From Candidatus Magasanikiibacteriota bacterium (GTDB lineage Bacteria > Patescibacteriota > Patescibacteriia > Magasanikbacterales > GWA2-37-8), in the NCBI GenBank assembly GCA_016234265.1, contig JACRFW010000006.1, forward strand, positions 1 through 44,662: DNA of 44,662 bases, in the 5' to 3' direction. The notes under the pieces were generated by a model. That model was not told the origin of the DNA, did not search any database, and saw only the letters and a program-made list of their open reading frames with translations. Both the position numbers and the translations under genes were made by a program. Each line of letters opens with the position of its first letter. The stretch's first letter is position 1. Below, in pieces: positions 4,786 to 37,156 of the stretch.

Positions 4786-7218
4786 TTAATTAGATTGTTT
4801 TTTCATGAGGAGGCTCCAGACCGAATCGGCAGTCAGCGGTTTTTTTTCAATGGTAGCGCCATTTTTTGCCGTTTTGAGAGCGGCGCCATCTTTCCACTCC
4901 GGTCGCCAATTGGCCGGAAAGACGATTTGACTTTCAAAGTCGGCCGTGAGGCCAGATTGCTTTTGTACCACGAGCTGGTAGCGGGCGAGCGGGGCGGATA
5001 ACGGGCTGAGCATTTTTTGCCAGCCAGAGAGCGTCGCGTCGGAGGTGGCGGAGAAAAGGGTGAACGGAAGGCGGTATGTGAACTGCACCTGGCTCACCTG
5101 ACCCGGCTCGGTGATAACCCAGTTGCCAAAGACGGTTTTGCCAGACTCTTCGGTGATGGCCGTGCCGGACGTTTGGTCTACTCCTATTTCAGTCTGGTGG
5201 GCATTCAGGAAGGGGTCGTCGGTTGTCCACGCATCTGGAACTTGGAAGTTTTTTTCTTCTGGCCAGGTGAACCCGCCGGCGGAGAGGAGCGTGCTCCCCT
5301 TAGGAACGTACAGCCGCAGGAAATCGGTGTTAGTCTGGCCGTAGAGCATGTCGCCCCGATTGCCAGAGTGTTCGCGTGTAATGACGACGTTGTCAATGAT
5401 GGAACCGTCAGACGCCGCGACGGCCTGGTGAGAAATGGTTTGATGTATTTTGGCGTCGCTTTTTTGTCCCTGGATGTTGGTATTCACAACGAACAGATAG
5501 TCTATATTTGCCGGAGTATCAAGTATCTGTCCGGTCCAGCCGAAAGAACGTAAAGTACCCTCCGTCTGACTGTCCGTAAAGTAGGCCTGGATCTCTTTTT
5601 GCTTGAGAGCCTCGGACGCGTTGGTGAGGAGCGCGAGTATTTTATCTGTCGGCACATGGTGAAGCGCGCCGAGTAGCTCCGGCGCCAAGTCGGTGAGAAT
5701 TTGTTTTGGCCGGTTGAGCTTTTTCTCCGGTCCTTCCTCCACGATCTGTTGAATGGTGGGCAAGGCATTATCCGCGTTGAGGGTGAGTTGTCTTTTTTCG
5801 TCGGTCAGGGGGCCGAGTATAGTCAGGATTCTTCGCAAGACGGAAGAATTTATCGCGATGACGCCATCGGTGGAAACACCGCGGCTGTGGGCATAGAACC
5901 ACATAATTTTTTCCGCGCTGGTCGGAAAATCGGGGAACCAGTTGGCGTCCTGGAACTCCCAGCGTTTATTGCTGAGGAGGAGCGGCGCCGGGGGTTTGAT
6001 AAACTCGCGGAGTTGTCCCTGCACGTCATAGGTGCCGCCGGGCGGGACTTCAAGGTTCACTATGGCCCCATCTTTTACATCAATAATAGCAAAACTACCC
6101 ATAAAGCCGCCGGTGGGCCTGAGTTCGCTCTCATTTTGGAATACCAACAGATAGCGGCGCAAACCTTTGCCGCCAAAAATTTCATGAATTGCTCCGCCCA
6201 GGTCGGCTAGACTTTCAAAATCATTTACTAAATGGCCGAATAGGTCTCTGTACCCAAGAAATTGGCTTTGGTATTCCAAGGGCAGATTGTTTACTTTGAC
6301 TAACTGTAAATGTTTTAGAGCTTTTTGGTAGTTGGGAAGAGCGCTATTAACATAGGCGAGCGTCGTGTCTATTTGTTGCAATAGTGTGCTGGACGGGCTC
6401 TTCGGTATTATCGAGAGGCCGTACAGGAGATAACTGTTGCCAACGGCTATTTCCTGGCCGGCGAGTAAAATGTTTTCTCGGCTCTCCACTTCGCCCCCAA
6501 CCAGCGGCATCGCGCGGGCGAGCGTAGTAAGAATGCTGTGTTGCCCGACGATATTTAAAGATTGGTCAAAAGTAGCGAGTGCCCGGCGGGTGGCGCTGCT
6601 GGCTTTGTTCAGATCGGCCTCACGGAGGGCGGCGGCGGAATCTTGAAGAGCTGAAAATCCAGCCAGACCTTCGTTTGCGACCGTATTTTTGATTGATTCC
6701 AGCTGGTTGTAATAACTTCTGGCCGGCCCGGGGATGATGATAAGGAAAACAAGCAACACCGCCACAGCAGCCAGCCCTTTGGTGGGAATGAGCTGACGGG
6801 GAAAGCTGGTTATTTTATGGAACCAAGGTCGGAGTTCTTTAATGGCGTTATGAAGGTGTTTTATTTTCTGGAACAGCCGGCTCGGGGCGGGGGTTGCCTT
6901 TGGCGGCGAGACCAATGGCGATGGCCGAGTTTCATGATAGTGTTGGTAGAGGGCATTATCTGGTTCGGGGGAAACTGTTTCCACTTGGTTCCATAATGAG
7001 TCCTGTTCTCTTTTGAGGTTGATAACGTGGGGAGAGGCGGTTGGTTCGTGGGTAACGTGGTGTATAAAAAATTTCAACGGCGGTGGAGGCGTTTTGGGAG
7101 AAACAGTCTGGGTTGCCGTCGGCGTGGTGCAGGTAGATTTGTTGTGGCCGACTTTTTGGCAGTTGGCGCACCGCCGGATTTGTTTTTTAGGCACAATAGT
7201 GAGAAGAAAATCCAACAA
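4786..7218 (-). CDS. DUF4012 membrane protein with N-terminal CCHC zinc knuckle
   Basis: An 810-residue protein. Residues 17-30 read C17-AN-C20-QKVG-H25-NKST-C30, an exact C-x2-C-x4-H-x4-C zinc knuckle as in retroviral nucleocapsids. A Pro/Thr-rich linker follows, then one membrane helix at about 153-172 and a large external region. The centre of that region (FQNESELRPTGGFMGSFAII, then a segment containing PDFPTSAEKIMWFY) is the DUF4012 signature. DUF4012 proteins are common near glycan and cell-wall genes in CPR and Gram-positive bacteria; their reaction is unknown. The zinc knuckle is predicted to face the cytoplasm. The gene lies between a GT4 gene and a DUF11-like gene on the same strand, with a hairpin upstream at 7231-7304. 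Confidence 0.8.
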   Translation of the reverse strand: MLDFLLTIVPKKQIRRCANCQKVGHNKSTCTTPTATQTVSPKTPPPPLKFFIHHVTHEPTASPHVINLKREQDSLWNQVETVSPEPDNALYQHYHETRPSPLVSPPKATPAPSRLFQKIKHLHNAIKELRPWFHKITSFPRQLIPTKGLAAVAVLLVFLIIIPGPARSYYNQLESIKNTVANEGLAGFSALQDSAAALREADLNKASSATRRALATFDQSLNIVGQHSILTTLARAMPLVGGEVESRENILLAGQEIAVGNSYLLYGLSIIPKSPSSTLLQQIDTTLAYVNSALPNYQKALKHLQLVKVNNLPLEYQSQFLGYRDLFGHLVNDFESLADLGGAIHEIFGGKGLRRYLLVFQNESELRPTGGFMGSFAIIDVKDGAIVNLEVPPGGTYDVQGQLREFIKPPAPLLLSNKRWEFQDANWFPDFPTSAEKIMWFYAHSRGVSTDGVIAINSSVLRRILTILGPLTDEKRQLTLNADNALPTIQQIVEEGPEKKLNRPKQILTDLAPELLGALHHVPTDKILALLTNASEALKQKEIQAYFTDSQTEGTLRSFGWTGQILDTPANIDYLFVVNTNIQGQKSDAKIHQTISHQAVAASDGSIIDNVVITREHSGNRGDMLYGQTNTDFLRLYVPKGSTLLSAGGFTWPEEKNFQVPDAWTTDDPFLNAHQTEIGVDQTSGTAITEESGKTVFGNWVITEPGQVSQVQFTYRLPFTLFSATSDATLSGWQKMLSPLSAPLARYQLVVQKQSGLTADFESQIVFPANWRPEWKDGAALKTAKNGATIEKKPLTADSVWSLLMKKQSN

Positions 7219-8536: not shown

Positions 8537-8558
8537 AAGGCCCGTTTTGTGCTATACT
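8530..8558 (+). promoter_or_regulatory. Consensus promoter facing the RT remnant
   Basis: TTGACA (8530-8535), a 17-bp spacer and TATACT (8553-8558) make a near-perfect housekeeping promoter. Transcription would start near 8565 and run through the palindromic repeats and the reverse transcriptase remnant toward the MgtE_N/CBS gene. It shares its -35 bases with the divergent promoter of the GT4 operon. Confidence 0.75.
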
Positions 8559-8618
8559 GCTTTGTTAGTTCTATAAATCCGCCAGCTGGAAGAATCTCGG
8601 CCTTCTTTAGCATAATCA

Positions 8619-8751
8619 CCCCCTCCCCTACAAGGGGAGGGACAGAGGGTGGGGTTTTCACCGACGTTAACCCCCACCTCTGTCCTCCCCCTCATAGGGG
8701 AGGGAGGAGTGGCCACCCTCTCCCCGTGGGAGAGGGGCAAGAGGTGAGGGG
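8619..8751. repeat. GC-rich palindromic repeat cluster
   Basis: The block 8621-8656 is an imperfect inverted copy of 8669-8704. Each arm carries a smaller hairpin of the form CCCTCCCC-loop-GGGGAGGG. A third hairpin, CCCTCTCCC-CGT-GGGAGAGGG, lies at 8716-8736. This REP- or MITE-like C/G-rich composition is unlike the flanking genes. It is open in the same frame as the RT remnant that follows, giving a Pro/Gly-rich peptide. Confidence 0.8.
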
Positions 8752-8755
8752 CCGC

Positions 8756-8950
8756 ATCGGCCTGCCGCTCGGCAACCTCACTTCACAGTTATTTTCAAAT
8801 ATCTATCTAAATTGTTTTGATCAGTGGGTCAAACATAAACTCAAAACGAAACACTATATTCGCTATGCCGATGATTTTGTATTTTTGTCGCCAGACAAAG
8901 ATTGGCTCACGAGCATTGTACCTTTAGTACAGAAATTTTTACAAACAAAT
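8756..8950 (+). pseudogene. Reverse transcriptase remnant (DGR-like)
   Basis: The 65 codons from 8756 encode the palm region of a bacterial reverse transcriptase. They contain GLPLGNLTSQLFSNIYLN, then a conserved FDQWVKH, then HYIRYADDFVFLSPDKDWL with the catalytic YADD box at 8874-8885. The L-G-N-L-T-S-Q form of motif 4, instead of Q-G-x-x-x-S-P, is typical of diversity-generating-retroelement enzymes and close relatives. The fingers domain upstream and the thumb downstream are absent; palindromic repeats lie before it and the regulator's promoter just after. It is therefore a dead fragment. No template/variable repeat pair was recognised. Confidence 0.75.
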
Positions 8951-8954
8951 AGGG

Positions 8955-8983
8955 TTGCTTTTAGGCTTAGAATAGAGTATAGT
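8955..8983 (+). promoter_or_regulatory. Promoter of MgtE_N/CBS regulator and Nramp-type transporter
   Basis: TTGCTT (8955-8960), a 17-bp spacer and TATAGT (8978-8983). The ATG at 9002 is 18 nt beyond the -10 box, so the leader would be only about 11 nt. It supports starting the gene at 9002 rather than inside the upstream RT remnant. Confidence 0.7.
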
Positions 8984-9001
8984 AGACGCGTTATTTGGTT
9001 T

Positions 9002-10213
9002 ATGCTTTACCTTAGTCAACTCCTCAAAACGAAAGTCCGAGACAGCTCCGATCAGGTGGTGGGGGTGCTCGCGGATATTGTCATCAAACCGCAAGAGGGG
9101 CAGTATGCCCCGCTTTTATTTTTAGGCGTGCGCAAGCGATTCTCCAAGCAGATTTTATACGTTCCTCTTTCTGCCGTGGCCGCTTTGGCAGCTTCCGAAA
9201 TTACTTTGCGTATACGGGCGGCTAACATCTTGGCTAATACCCCGAACGAGGACTCGGTTTGGTTGGTGAAAGATATTTTTGACGAGCAGATTGTGGACGT
9301 TGAAGGGGCGCGGGTGGTGCGCGTGAATGATTTGAAGCTTGGTTTAGTGGATGAAATCTGGTGTGTGATTGGCATTGATATCAGTTTGAGCGGGCTCATG
9401 AGGCGTTTGAAGATCGGGTGGCTGGATGTATTTCAAATGTTCCAGCCTAGTTTTATAGATTGGCGCAAAGCGCAACGAGTGAAGGGGGCGTTGCGCGTGG
9501 ACAGCCTTTCCGACGATCTTATCCGTCTTCACCCCGCGGATCTCGCCAATATTATTGAAGACTTAAGCACTAAGCACGGCGCTCGCCTGGTACGATCGCT
9601 TGATGACACTATTGCCGCGAAGGTGCTGGAGGAGCTGGAGCCGCGGCTGCAGAAAATTTTAGTGGATCGCCTAGGGCCGGAGAAGACCTCTCATATTTTA
9701 GAAAAGATGTCTACCGATGAGGTGGCGGACCTTATTCAAATGCTCCCGCCAAAGGAAGCGGAAGAGGTGCTGGCCAAACTGCCCGGCCGCAAATTGACCA
9801 GTGTGGAACAGTTACTCCGCTACAAAGATGACACGGCCGGTGGGCTCATGACTACTGACCTTATACAGGTGAAGCCGTTTTGGACGGTACAGCAGGCGCT
9901 CAAAGAAATTGAGAAACACTCCGATTCTATGCGGTCAGTTTTGTACGCCTATGTTGTTGATGACGCTGAAGTTTTTCAGGGCGCGGTGTCTTTGCGCCGC
10001 CTGATGTTTGCCGAACCGAACGCTAAGATTGACGACTTGCTCATCAAAGATCACCCCTACGCGACTTTGCGCGTTCAACACTCCATTAAGGATGTGGTGC
10101 GAATTATGACAAAATATGATTTGTATACGGCGGCAGTGCTGGATAGAGATAACAAGCTTTTAGGGATGGTGACTATTGATGATGTGATGCGTCACTTACA
10201 TCCTCAAGCGTGA
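9002..10213 (+). CDS. Soluble PRC-like/MgtE_N/CBS regulator
   Basis: A 403-residue cytoplasmic protein with three parts. Residues 1-75 (VRDSSDQVVGVLADIVIKPQ) resemble a PRC barrel. About 155-275 is an MgtE_N domain (RLHPADLANIIEDL, then ILEKMSTDEVADLIQMLPPK). About 280-400 is a CBS pair starting at the family hallmark DDTAGGLMTTDLIQV and ending MVTIDDVMRHL. In MgtE channels these domains sense Mg2+ and close the pore, but here the membrane part is missing. The gene is followed after 6 nt by an Nramp-type transporter, so regulation of that protein in trans is the natural inference. The open frame continues upstream into the RT remnant; promoter position and domain content favour the Met at 9002. 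Confidence 0.85.
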   Translation: MLYLSQLLKTKVRDSSDQVVGVLADIVIKPQEGQYAPLLFLGVRKRFSKQILYVPLSAVAALAASEITLRIRAANILANTPNEDSVWLVKDIFDEQIVDVEGARVVRVNDLKLGLVDEIWCVIGIDISLSGLMRRLKIGWLDVFQMFQPSFIDWRKAQRVKGALRVDSLSDDLIRLHPADLANIIEDLSTKHGARLVRSLDDTIAAKVLEELEPRLQKILVDRLGPEKTSHILEKMSTDEVADLIQMLPPKEAEEVLAKLPGRKLTSVEQLLRYKDDTAGGLMTTDLIQVKPFWTVQQALKEIEKHSDSMRSVLYAYVVDDAEVFQGAVSLRRLMFAEPNAKIDDLLIKDHPYATLRVQHSIKDVVRIMTKYDLYTAAVLDRDNKLLGMVTIDDVMRHLHPQA

Positions 10214-20791: not shown

Positions 20792-21577
20792 ATGAACTAC
20801 GAACACACTACGAAAACACGAAATATGTTGGAAGGAGTAAACGAACAACGGCCCTGGTACGGGCATTGGTGGGGGAAAATACTGATTGGGCTGATGGTTT
20901 TTTCTCTGGTGATTCTGTTTGTGTTCATTGCCATCACACTCATGTTTTGGTGGCAAATAAAACATGGTCAGAAGCCGGATCTCGGCGTGCCGCCAGCTGG
21001 TTCATTTTCATTCATGGCGTCATTCGCCGCGTCTGGGGCGGCCCATATTGATCGCTCACGGCTAGAAACCGCCGATGACCCGAGCCTCGGTCGCACTGGG
21101 GCACCGATAACAGTCGTTGAATTTATTGATCTTAAATGTCCCAATTCTCGAGCGGCCGCGCCTATAATGGATAAGGTGATTGCCCGCTATGGAGCGAAAG
21201 TTCATTTGATTATCCGTGATTTCCCCGTTGAATCAACCCATCCCGGGGCAACGGAGCTCTCGGAGCTGGCGTATTGCGCCGATCAACAGCATCGTTTTTG
21301 GCCAATGTACCAAGTATTATTTAGTGAGCAAGACACACTTTCCGCCGCTCTTGATGATACCGCGCTCTCGCGTCTGGCTGATCGTTCAGGCACTGACTTT
21401 GCCACTTTAAAAACCTGCCTCGCCACCGCCGCCCCGCTTCAGGAAATACGGGCTGACTACCTGACCGGCATTTCCGCCGGTGTGCGCGGCACGCCAACAT
21501 TTTTCATCAACGGGCAAAAGGTGGAGGGGGTAATACCATTTGAGACATGGGAGAAGTATTTAGAGAAAGTGAAATGA
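20792..21577 (+). CDS. Membrane-anchored DsbA-fold protein with one active-site cysteine
   Basis: A 261-residue thioredoxin-like protein of the DsbA/Thioredoxin_4 group, with one membrane helix at about 29-53 and the fold outside the membrane. The active-site position reads C116-P-N-S119, so the second cysteine of C-x-x-C is missing; the cis-proline loop GTPTFFINGQ is kept. It may act as a monothiol isomerase or holdase rather than a disulfide oxidase. It overlaps the next gene by ATGA, a strong sign of coupled translation with the cysteine-rich VirB2-like protein, its likely client. The same order recurs at 36500/35081. Confidence 0.85.
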   Translation: MNYEHTTKTRNMLEGVNEQRPWYGHWWGKILIGLMVFSLVILFVFIAITLMFWWQIKHGQKPDLGVPPAGSFSFMASFAASGAAHIDRSRLETADDPSLGRTGAPITVVEFIDLKCPNSRAAAPIMDKVIARYGAKVHLIIRDFPVESTHPGATELSELAYCADQQHRFWPMYQVLFSEQDTLSAALDDTALSRLADRSGTDFATLKTCLATAAPLQEIRADYLTGISAGVRGTPTFFINGQKVEGVIPFETWEKYLEKVK

Positions 21578-23142
21578 AATTTTATATGTTCCGCTGGTTG
21601 ATATTATTTGTCGTATTAGCTGGGGCAGTATTGCCAGCTGCCTCTGCCCTGGCTGCCGATACCACTCCGCCGGAGTTTAATCCGCTATGTTGGCAGAAGA
21701 AACAATGTGACAGCGTGCGCCAGCAGATTGCTGGTAAATCCGGACAACCACTCACCCAAGCTGATCGGGAAGCTTTAAAAGAAGGTTTTATCACCGGCCC
21801 GGAAGCTATTCCCTGCGCTGGTGGCAAAACAGGCAGCGACGAAGAATGGGGCCGATGTCTGCCGGCCAATGTGGCCAAGACGGAAATAGCTTTCGGAGGC
21901 AAGCGCTCTTTTTTGAATATTGGCGACTTCATTCAGTCAAACTATCGTTACGCGTTGAGCATTGTCGGTATTTTAGCCGCGATAATGGTCGTGGTGGCGG
22001 GCTTCCAGTGGGTGACCAGCGGCGGCAATAGCGAAGCCATCACGAGCGCCAAAAAGCGCATCGGCGGCGCATTGATTGGGTTGTTTATTGCCTACATGTC
22101 GTATTTTATTTTGAACACCATTAACCCGGCTTTGGTGAATTTGCGTTTGCCGCAAAATTGGCTGATTCGCCCCCAGAGTATTGTCCCGGCATTTTGCGCG
22201 GCCGCGCCAACATCCACTACTCGTTTAGCCAAGGCGGCCGAGAAAGATCAGCAGAGTGTGGAAGTTAAGCCGCCAGCTCAAATAGATTACAGTTTGGCTT
22301 ATGACCCAGCCACCACGACTGGCGCTTTTGCTTGTGGCTCCCGTTACTTTGTTGAGGGCGGTGGCAATACCACTTGTTTCGGTGATCTCTGCGGGCCAAA
22401 TTCTCTTTGTGTCAATTTCAATAGTTCAGACAGCAAAAACCCCTATAATTGTCAGCAAGGAATTTTGGCCGGGACAATATCTGGCAGCGGCCAGGGGTTG
22501 AGTACGGTTGTTATTGATGGCCCTGTGGAGTTATGGGCTTTTTGCAAGAGCGGTGAAAGAAAACGAGTAGATAGCGTTTCAGCCGTCAATGATCGTCAGC
22601 CGGCAACATACATTTTTGCTACTGACCAGACAAAACTTGCTCAGGCCTGTGGCTCACCGGAGAGCGCTCTTGGTTTTTATTTGGTGGCTGAGGTGAACGA
22701 TGAGACTGGTTTAACGGGAAAGTTCATTGAAGGCGCGCCATGGAGCTGGGGCCTTGATGACTGGCATGCGGTTGGCCGATTGCCCAAGTCTGGATCATGT
22801 TCGATTAATCTAGCAAAAGTCGCCAACCGGATTGCTGATGTTTTTATACCATGTAATCAAGAGGTGAGCTGGTTGGCCTGCAGCGCCACTTTTTTTAGTA
22901 ATAGCCGGCCGATGAATGATGTATATCCATCTTTAGCAAAGGATTCTGAGTTTCAAACTTATTTATTGTCATCTAGTGATTTAGCGCGCGGTTTTCAATG
23001 TGATCTTTCGATTGATCGTAGTGAGTTCCCGGCTCTTGATCTTACGCGGGACCCGAGCGGGAGGTATACATCAGGCGGCGGGGCTATTATTCAGAGCGAA
23101 GAAATTCAGAGAGCGTACAATCATGCCAAGTCCGTATACTAG
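21574..23142 (+). CDS. VirB2/TrbC-like pilin-region membrane protein with cysteine-rich exodomain
   Basis: About 522 residues. A signal peptide (1-27, ending SALA) is followed by a Cys-containing segment and a VirB2/TrbC-type hairpin: helix 127-148, the loop GGNSEAITSAKKRIGG, helix 164-184, ending NTINPAL. The C-terminal 330 residues are predicted external, rich in Cys and Asn, with no domain I recognise. The start is set at 21574, where ATG overlaps the stop of the DsbA-fold gene; the Met at 21547 lies inside that gene. VirB2-like proteins form type IV secretion pili, but no VirB4/VirD4 ATPase is in the window. A related protein, fused to a peptidase, is at 35081-36493. Confidence 0.8.
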   Translation: MKFYMFRWLILFVVLAGAVLPAASALAADTTPPEFNPLCWQKKQCDSVRQQIAGKSGQPLTQADREALKEGFITGPEAIPCAGGKTGSDEEWGRCLPANVAKTEIAFGGKRSFLNIGDFIQSNYRYALSIVGILAAIMVVVAGFQWVTSGGNSEAITSAKKRIGGALIGLFIAYMSYFILNTINPALVNLRLPQNWLIRPQSIVPAFCAAAPTSTTRLAKAAEKDQQSVEVKPPAQIDYSLAYDPATTTGAFACGSRYFVEGGGNTTCFGDLCGPNSLCVNFNSSDSKNPYNCQQGILAGTISGSGQGLSTVVIDGPVELWAFCKSGERKRVDSVSAVNDRQPATYIFATDQTKLAQACGSPESALGFYLVAEVNDETGLTGKFIEGAPWSWGLDDWHAVGRLPKSGSCSINLAKVANRIADVFIPCNQEVSWLACSATFFSNSRPMNDVYPSLAKDSEFQTYLLSSSDLARGFQCDLSIDRSEFPALDLTRDPSGRYTSGGGAIIQSEEIQRAYNHAKSVY

Positions 23143-35080: not shown

Positions 35081-36493
35081 TCAGCCGTTGCAGGCGACTG
35101 GTTTCGCGGTGTAATGGCTGCGGCTGGTACCGTTGGTACCGTATTCAAAATGCCAAATTTCAGTTTCCAGGCGATTAAACTTCGGGTCGGTAGTATAAAA
35201 GAAATTGTCCACAGTTTCAATGACTTTTGGATCGGCTTGGCACTGCGCGGTTCGCGGAGTGGCGCTATAGAGTTGTTTCCCGTCTTTTACCGGGAACAGG
35301 TCAACGGCGCGGCCATGGCCATGATTGGAGAAACCGGGCACGGCGCGGTATTTTTGGCGTTCTTTTGGTGGGAGGTTAGAATCTTTCTGGCACCAGCCTT
35401 TCACCTGGTCCTCAAAGGAGCGGAATGACCCGCCGGGAATAATGTTGAAAGTGTAGCCGTTCTGTTTGGCTAATGCCGCTACTTTGCAGAGCGGGTCGCG
35501 CATTTCTTTTATGGTGGTGATGCTGCCATTGATGCCGTCGCAGTTGTAGGTGACGAGTTCAGTTGGTGGCACTACCCCGGCCGGAGCATTGGTTTCGGAA
35601 CAGTTAAAATTTTCGGCAGTCCAGTCTGGTTGGGTAACACTTTTCGGGTATTCGCCTGGCGGAATGGAGTCATTTTCCTGGGGCAAAGGCACCGGCTCAA
35701 TGAATTTTACTTTGAGCATTTTGAAGTTGACCAGATCGGGGTTGATGGCAAAAAGCAGAGCGTACGAGCCCCACATAATGACGAGCCCGATGACGACTTC
35801 GCCGATGCGTTTATAGCCTTCCATTTTTCCTTCCCCGCCGGCCGAGACAATAATTTTTGCTCCGCTCATTACCACGATGACGGCGGCGATGATACTGCCA
35901 ACGACCATGCCGAATTTATAGATGGTGGCGATGAGTTCGCCGATGTAGGGGAGGTGAATGTAGCCTTCGCTGTCCAGGGTGTTTTTTACGTCCGTGAAAG
36001 AAAGACCCGGGATACGGAACTCAAGCAAGGGTTTATGAAATTCCAGGTTGGCCTTGATGCCGAGCATGCCTGCGTCGCCTCCCTCGTAGAGCTGTTTGGC
36101 CGTTTCGTCGAAAAAGCACTTATTTTTGTAGCAGATAAAATTTCCGGCCGGTTGTTCACAATCTCTGTCAGTAGCGCAGGTTTTAGCGCTTTTCGCGCAA
36201 ACCGTGCCGCCGCAGGCGACCGTATTGATGGCTTGGGCGACACAGCTGTTATCTATTTGATAGATACATCCAACAGTTTTGACGCCAATACTCTTCTCAA
36301 TGCGTTCGTGTGTTTTGCACTCCGCCTCGGTAGCCGCGTCATAGCAAGCATACTTGAGACTGGGGGAATCGGGGGGGGCAAAAAAATTTTCGCATTTACA
36401 AACGGCGGCTGCCTGCGCCTGGACAGAGCCAACAAGAGATAGGGAAAACCAAGCTGCCACTAATATACATTGTGCTGCGCGGTAGTAACGCAT
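35081..36493 (-). CDS. VirB2-like pilin region fused to M15 (VanY-type) peptidase
   Basis: A 470-residue protein. A signal peptide (about 1-29) is followed by a Cys-rich segment (32-127), a VirB2/TrbC-type hairpin (helices at about 190-210 and 230-250 around GGEGKMEGYKRIGE) ending AINPDL, and a C-terminal peptidase M15 domain. The peptidase site is complete: S389-x-H391-x2-G-x-A-x-D398 and E445-I-W-H448, giving zinc ligands H391, D398 and H448 with E445 as base. Such domains trim peptidoglycan peptides. The fusion suggests local wall opening for a pilus-like assembly, the job VirB1 does in type IV secretion. It is last in the ClpC-led operon, 6 nt after a DsbA-fold gene. Confidence 0.85.
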   Translation of the reverse strand: MRYYRAAQCILVAAWFSLSLVGSVQAQAAAVCKCENFFAPPDSPSLKYACYDAATEAECKTHERIEKSIGVKTVGCIYQIDNSCVAQAINTVACGGTVCAKSAKTCATDRDCEQPAGNFICYKNKCFFDETAKQLYEGGDAGMLGIKANLEFHKPLLEFRIPGLSFTDVKNTLDSEGYIHLPYIGELIATIYKFGMVVGSIIAAVIVVMSGAKIIVSAGGEGKMEGYKRIGEVVIGLVIMWGSYALLFAINPDLVNFKMLKVKFIEPVPLPQENDSIPPGEYPKSVTQPDWTAENFNCSETNAPAGVVPPTELVTYNCDGINGSITTIKEMRDPLCKVAALAKQNGYTFNIIPGGSFRSFEDQVKGWCQKDSNLPPKERQKYRAVPGFSNHGHGRAVDLFPVKDGKQLYSATPRTAQCQADPKVIETVDNFFYTTDPKFNRLETEIWHFEYGTNGTSRSHYTAKPVACNG

Positions 36494-36499
36494 GGGGCT

Positions 36500-37156
36500 C
36501 TATTCTTGGGTAAACGTGGTGAGCATTTGTTCAATATTGACTCCGCTTTCCATATTTACTTGTTTGTTGTTGGCAAAGAATGCCGGAGAGGTAGCGATGC
36601 CGAGGTCTCTTAGGGCGGTTCCCGTATTTATTACGGCCTGTTCGGTGGCGGGGAGTTTAGCGCAAGTTAAAAGTTGCGCGCCGTTCAGGCGCAATTTGTC
36701 CGCTCGGGCCTTTAATTGATCCTCGGTCAGGTTTGGCGAATCTAAAAGATTTTTGAGCAACGCCCAAAATTGTTGGTTGGAAGAAGAAACGCACCACAGG
36801 GCCTGGTGGGCGAGGGAAGATGAACCCAAAAGGCGCTGGCTTAGGGTTGGTTTAAAAATGAGACGCACAGCGGTCAGATGATCGCCGATAAAATTGATAG
36901 TGGTTGAAAGAAGCGAGCGGGTGGAGGCATCGGCCAAATCGCCAAAAATAACTATCGTAAGCGGCGCGCCCGGGTTGCCCAAGAGCGGGTCGGCCGGGGT
37001 GATGGGGAGATCAATGGCGACCGGGCTCACGAGCGGCATATTTACCGTTTTTATGGTGATTGAGCGGGCGGTGATAATCTGGCGGGCGAGCAGCCAGGCG
37101 CTCCCGATGATGAGAATGGCGATGGCGAGGAATAGTTTTTTGTTTGCTGTGGTCAT
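36500..37156 (-). CDS. Membrane-anchored DsbA-fold protein without active-site cysteines
   Basis: A 218-residue thioredoxin-like protein with one membrane helix at about 8-24. GNPGAPLTIVIFGDLADAST aligns with the active-site strand of DsbA-like proteins (compare GAPITVVEFIDLKCPNS at 20792), but the C-x-x-C position reads D76-A-S-T. The cis-proline loop ATSPAFFANNKQ is kept. It therefore cannot do thiol redox chemistry there and may be a chaperone or structural partner of the cysteine-rich VirB2/M15 protein encoded next. Confidence 0.78.
   Translation of the reverse strand: MTTANKKLFLAIAILIIGSAWLLARQIITARSITIKTVNMPLVSPVAIDLPITPADPLLGNPGAPLTIVIFGDLADASTRSLLSTTINFIGDHLTAVRLIFKPTLSQRLLGSSSLAHQALWCVSSSNQQFWALLKNLLDSPNLTEDQLKARADKLRLNGAQLLTCAKLPATEQAVINTGTALRDLGIATSPAFFANNKQVNMESGVNIEQMLTTFTQE

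Follow-up and report, generated by a model that had tools for sequence, protein, structure and literature searches.

The DsbA-type fold is generally taken as that of a thiol-disulfide factor with a CxxC active site. The E. coli DsbA acts as a chaperone on substrates without Cys, and does so less strongly with its CxxC in the reduced state (PMC8386657). The F-plasmid protein TraF has no CxxC yet is required for pilus extension, and the TrbB protein alongside it is redox-active (PMC11315126, PMC7555446). TMX5, with the site CRFS, is a natural trapping protein for its clients (PMC11443168). In the case of the Patescibacteria, a survey found VirB1 to be lacking in most genomes bearing VirB2, and its main text makes no mention of thioredoxin or disulfide (PMC12102498).

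Here, we analyzed a stretch of 44,662 nucleotides (the window), which is one contig of a 913-kb genome of the Candidatus Magasanikbacteria type that is 98% complete. Its class within the Patescibacteria consists of ultra-small cells, mostly uncultured. The window carries two pairs, each formed by a DsbA-fold gene, named D (D1, D2), and a hairpin-bearing downstream partner, named V (V1, V2):

20792..21577, plus strand: D1, membrane-anchored DsbA/BdbD fold, 261 aa (PF13462, E 2.2e-22; PF01323, E 8.6e-16)
21137..21148, plus strand: D1 active-site codons TGT CCC AAT TCT, C116-P-N-S119, one-thiol
21574..23142, plus strand: V1, 522 aa, with signal peptide, Cys-rich N-terminal region, hairpin at about aa 114-203 and 16 Cys
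35081..36493, minus strand: V2, 470 aa, with signal peptide, Cys-rich N-terminal domain and hairpin at aa 150-270
36500..37156, minus strand: D2, membrane-anchored DsbA/BdbD fold, 218 aa (PF13462, Thioredoxin_4, E 2.9e-5)
36920..36931, minus strand: D2 degraded active-site codons GAT GCC TCC ACC, D76-A-S-T79, both Cys lost

The pairs lie on opposite strands (D1-V1 at 20792-23142, plus; D2-V2 at 37156-35081, minus). The start of the V1 gene overlaps the D1 stop by ATGA, and 6 nt separate D2 from V2. The preliminary description had reported two DsbA-fold genes, each followed in the same order by a VirB2-type hairpin gene, and this arrangement is real, as judged by the Pfam domains and by the homology of the V1 and V2 hairpins (37% identity over 88 aa, E 2.5e-11). 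Its membrane anchors were confirmed as a single N-terminal transmembrane segment in each D protein (aa 30-48 in D1), and its degraded sites, CPNS in D1 and DAST in D2, were read directly from the codons; the C-x-x-C site is absent from both window copies. Both have the DsbA-type thioredoxin fold with cis-Pro. D1 keeps the structural Cys pair C162/C209 and cis-Pro235, and D2 keeps C122/C165 and cis-Pro191. The AlphaFold model of D2 (pLDDT 87.6) had BdbD 3eu4 as its nearest PDB fold in Foldseek (E 1.9e-8), and the profile search with D1 gave 3gyk and DsbA entries as the nearest PDB sequences. No match of D to the TraF/TrbB sequence family was found among the Pfam or NCBIfam matches. Elsewhere in the window, a 554-aa frame at 8549-10213 (plus strand) joins, by eye, a short reverse-transcriptase-like stretch, IRYADDFVFLSPDK, to a PRC-barrel/MgtE-type and CBS-like part; it is possibly a remnant reverse transcriptase fused through the start-site call.

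No DsbB/VKOR gene was found beside D1 or D2. Instead, VKOR genes lie close to two further DsbA genes of the same genome, which have the intact sites CPAC and CPFC, are located on contigs C18 and C47, and are not beside V genes. Disulfide formation thus need not depend on D1 and D2, and the loss of oxidase function in D would be tolerable without losing the disulfides of the clients. The genome also encodes a virB4 homologue on contig C28; the D-V pairs are on contig C27. A DsbA-type fragment was noticed at the end of contig C52, adjoining another protein gene (L019:4834-5361 and 5367-5687).

The hairpin of V1 matched T4SS_pilin (PF18895) with 29.9 bits, above the cut-off of 26.6. The V2 hairpin scored 13.3 bits, below this cut-off, and is assigned through its homology to that of V1; its relatives, where named, are mostly Candidatus Magasanikbacteria. 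The C-terminal ectodomain of V1 is predicted to be disulfide-rich. The search for PDB sequence relatives of V1 gave none, most V1 ectodomains of relatives likewise matched nothing, and no V1 homologues were found in the viral-contig search. The V2 protein has 18 Cys outside the signal peptide, and its C-terminus (aa 330-451) is a VanY-type domain (PF02557, 42.1 bits, cut-off 25). It contains the motif residues H391, D398, E445 and H448, whose roles we presume from knowledge of the M15 family. By family match and motif, this domain is a predicted peptidoglycan-cutting carboxypeptidase, and its presence on V2 is new here. Hence, V2 is more than a pilin whose exterior is rich in Cys, and the earlier picture of a signal-peptide hairpin protein leaves out its VanY domain. 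The structure model of V2 (mean pLDDT 62, no significant Foldseek match) was not used.

Within the order, the C-termini of V2 include VanY/M15, SLT, Amidase_2, C39, GDSL (with SLT), GH18, 3D, and others with no assigned family, to which the class-level V2 proteins add M23. Thus, "pilin-like", as the clients had been called, fits the hairpin alone, and most of the V2 partners are predicted to be cell-wall hydrolases. Neither V1 nor V2 is a short single-domain pilin encoded near virB4, since both are long and have extra domains and the virB4 homologue is on another contig. One V1 relative has a C-terminal HINT/pretoxin-HINT domain (L049:1423-3450, genome G056). A 905-aa V2 relative has one hairpin followed by two different M15-type peptidase domains (L121:5446-8163, genome G052). 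Contig C2 of the window's genome encodes a 673-aa T4SS_pilin-hairpin protein with an Ig-like domain (L016:4330-6351) in tandem with a T4SS_pilin-hairpin giant of about 3877 aa (L016:6361-17991). Cysteines were counted excluding the first 25 residues, and their number was even in 47 of 50 V1 and 36 of 46 V2 proteins; these rows are related by descent, and no p value is claimed for the evenness. Such counts are as expected for disulfide-rich extracytoplasmic domains, and V probably is a client with many disulfide bonds.

The pairing was surveyed in 57 genomes of the order, mostly MAGs, in which search matches (hairpin-only matches included) were found for V1 in 57/57 and for V2 in 56/57. Among V1 genes with upstream sequence, 51 of 52 directly followed D, and the remaining one followed another V1. 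In the case of V2, 45 of 65 such genes directly followed D, 18 followed another V2 in tandem, and 2 followed neither. When pooled, 96 of 117 V genes were directly after D and 19 after another V, which rules out chance adjacency. The gaps between D and V in relatives ranged mostly from an overlap to 20 nt, and no D-V fusion was seen. The wider search of genome contigs used the V2 hairpin as a query. D was directly upstream, within short flanks, in 17 of 28 class-level V2 loci outside the order, and D was near none of 18 hairpin loci outside the class. Counted from the D side, V adjoined 11 of the 13 best D matches inside the class (order members included) and 0 of the 17 best D matches outside it. 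The D sequences scored for active-site state were collected beside V genes, so only the V-first and D-first counts tell how often D and V are paired. Together with the counts outside the class, they make the module a class-wide feature on this sample. A survey of CPR genomes had been suggested as a check on whether the pair is rare; it is near universal among the 57 relatives and extends over the class, with none seen outside (0/17 and 0/18).

The active sites were scored in the same relatives. In D1, 25 of 50 sequences had CxxC and 25 had CxxS/T (Ser in 21, Thr in 4). The first Cys was kept in 50/50, and the second was replaced by Ser or Thr only. Since its nucleophilic Cys is never lost, D1 is a one-thiol form and not a dead one. 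In D2, CxxC was found in 34 of 46 sequences, 12 were without both Cys, and none had a single Cys. The structural Cys pair and cis-Pro were invariant in 97/97 D sequences. Both D1 and D2 were degraded in 3 of the 41 genomes with both scored, that of the window among them. The preliminary description had built on the loss of redox residues, which these counts do not bear out as a general rule.

On the best tree, which came from a short search and has many open forks, the state changed at least 12 times in D1 and at least 6 times in D2; with only the well-supported branches considered, the minimum is 6 and 2 changes. These counts do not give a direction, and an ancestral CxxC rests on general knowledge of the fold and on the class-level outgroup D genes, which have mostly C-x-x-C. 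As half of D1, three quarters of D2 and most of these outgroups keep this site, the module most likely was ancestrally a thiol-disulfide factor, with loss being lineage-specific and recurrent. The change of Cys to Ser takes one base, as do several replacements that were not seen, and the change to Thr takes two. The restriction to Ser/Thr at the second Cys of D1 suggests selection and not drift. If degraded D copies were decaying, they might evolve faster; this was rejected, as their distances were no longer than those of intact D. A mixed disulfide between V1 and a CxxS-type D1 might leave V1 with an odd number of Cys, which was also rejected (3/25 odd, Fisher p 0.23). The suggested co-evolution of cysteine loss in D with its partner gave no signal: the Cys content of the partner showed no co-variation with the D state.

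We read the observed pairing, domain architecture, even Cys counts and recurrent active-site changes as those of a two-gene module in which D is, with somewhat more confidence than doubt, a dedicated membrane-tethered folding factor for the disulfide-rich, hairpin-anchored V proteins, wall hydrolases included, and in which the redox part is optional. V would be a surface protein held in the membrane by the VirB2-type hairpin, its two termini lying outside and a basic loop in the cytoplasm, and V2 would carry at its C-terminus an enzyme that can be exchanged, in most cases a cell-wall hydrolase (VanY-type in the window). D may bind V on its exit from the Sec channel, and the disulfides of V may be made by the general DsbA/VKOR enzymes encoded elsewhere. 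With CxxS/T, D1 could be an isomerase with one thiol or a transient trap, able to hold and shuffle its client but not to oxidise it. D2 without both Cys could be a non-covalent chaperone or escort acting through the conserved DsbA groove. D1 would thus repeatedly have become a one-thiol form, and D2 a non-redox escort. Of the earlier proposal of a dedicated chaperone or scaffold rather than an oxidase, the dedicated, linked partner stands, as the pairing outlasts the loss of the site, degraded copies have no longer distances than intact ones, and neither the structural Cys pair nor cis-Pro varies; as a general rule it fails, since many homologues keep C-x-x-C. The partner Cys content, which does not track the D state, and the lack of any D-V fusion speak against a folding factor.

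D could instead be a client-specific thiol oxidase of the BdbD/DsbA type encoded beside its substrate, its degraded copies being drifting remnants that are redundant with other DsbA/VKOR enzymes. We regard this as unlikely, although an ordinary oxidase would suit many genomes, since CxxC is intact in roughly half of the D1 and three quarters of the D2 sequences; most class-level outgroups and the redundant intact DsbA and VKOR in the window's genome agree with it. The degraded copies, however, retain the pairing, the membrane anchor, the structural Cys pair and cis-Pro and show no rate acceleration, and the replacements in D1 are limited to Ser/Thr with the first Cys untouched, unlike drift.

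It is rather improbable that D is a scaffold or subunit which, like TraF, stays with V in a surface T4SS-like assembly and is not a folding factor. TraF is a non-redox thioredoxin-fold protein needed for F-pilus extension (PMC7555446, PMC11315126), D is membrane-anchored, and the genome has a VirB4 homologue. Against this, virB4 and the pairs are on different contigs, the exchangeable V2 enzymes require no scaffold in common, and most lineages retain CxxC. Conserved adjacency could also mean an expression unit only, with no functional link between D and V, but this is very improbable: in many families of the class, the same order has persisted in two pairs of ancient divergence and in tandem V2 arrays, and the intact DsbA genes are not beside V.

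A wider reading, which we put forward only tentatively, is that the class displays exchangeable wall hydrolases on VirB2-type hairpins, either as a stand-in for the missing VirB1 or for action on the host wall, each folded by a tethered DsbA-like protein repeatedly turned from an oxidase into a one-thiol trap or redox-dead escort. The module suggests where members of the class may keep wall hydrolases for T4SS-like or host-contact machinery, which is of interest because most VirB2-bearing genomes are without VirB1 (PMC12102498). As the same fold, with the same fixed client, occurs with CxxC, with CxxS/T or with neither Cys, the module also provides a natural series in which a non-redox role of DsbA-fold proteins is testable by comparison.

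Compared with the BdbD/DsbA/ScsC-type oxidoreductases (PF13462, PF01323), D shares the fold, the cis-Pro loop and the membrane tether, but the window copies are without CxxC, and each lies beside one downstream client and not beside VKOR. TMX5/TXNDC15 and ERp44, from the one-thiol PDI family, resemble D1 in keeping the first Cys and having Ser for the second, and the nucleophile of such CxxS sites is conserved in D1. They are, however, eukaryotic ER proteins of another subfamily; trapping by D1 would be putative, and the even Cys counts of V1 argue against a permanent adduct with D1. The V hairpin is homologous to that of the VirB2-like pilins of Patescibacteria (PF18895), with V1 above the Pfam cut-off, but V proteins have about 350-970 aa, are Cys-rich, often carry enzymatic domains, and in the window's genome are not beside virB4. 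The V2 proteins share with the VirB1-type wall hydrolases predicted lytic transglycosylase and peptidase activities tied to T4SS-type parts, whereas their enzyme sits on a VirB2-type hairpin and has a DsbA-fold gene as its neighbour; a VirB1 role of V2 is putative. In contrast to TrbB and TraF of the F-type T4SS, D is of the BdbD/DsbA type, matches neither family, is not beside virB4, and has hairpin-anchored enzymes as its clients. Like D, these two are thioredoxin-fold helpers, in their case of a T4SS/pilus, one redox-active and one without CxxC, and they are the nearest functional precedent for D.
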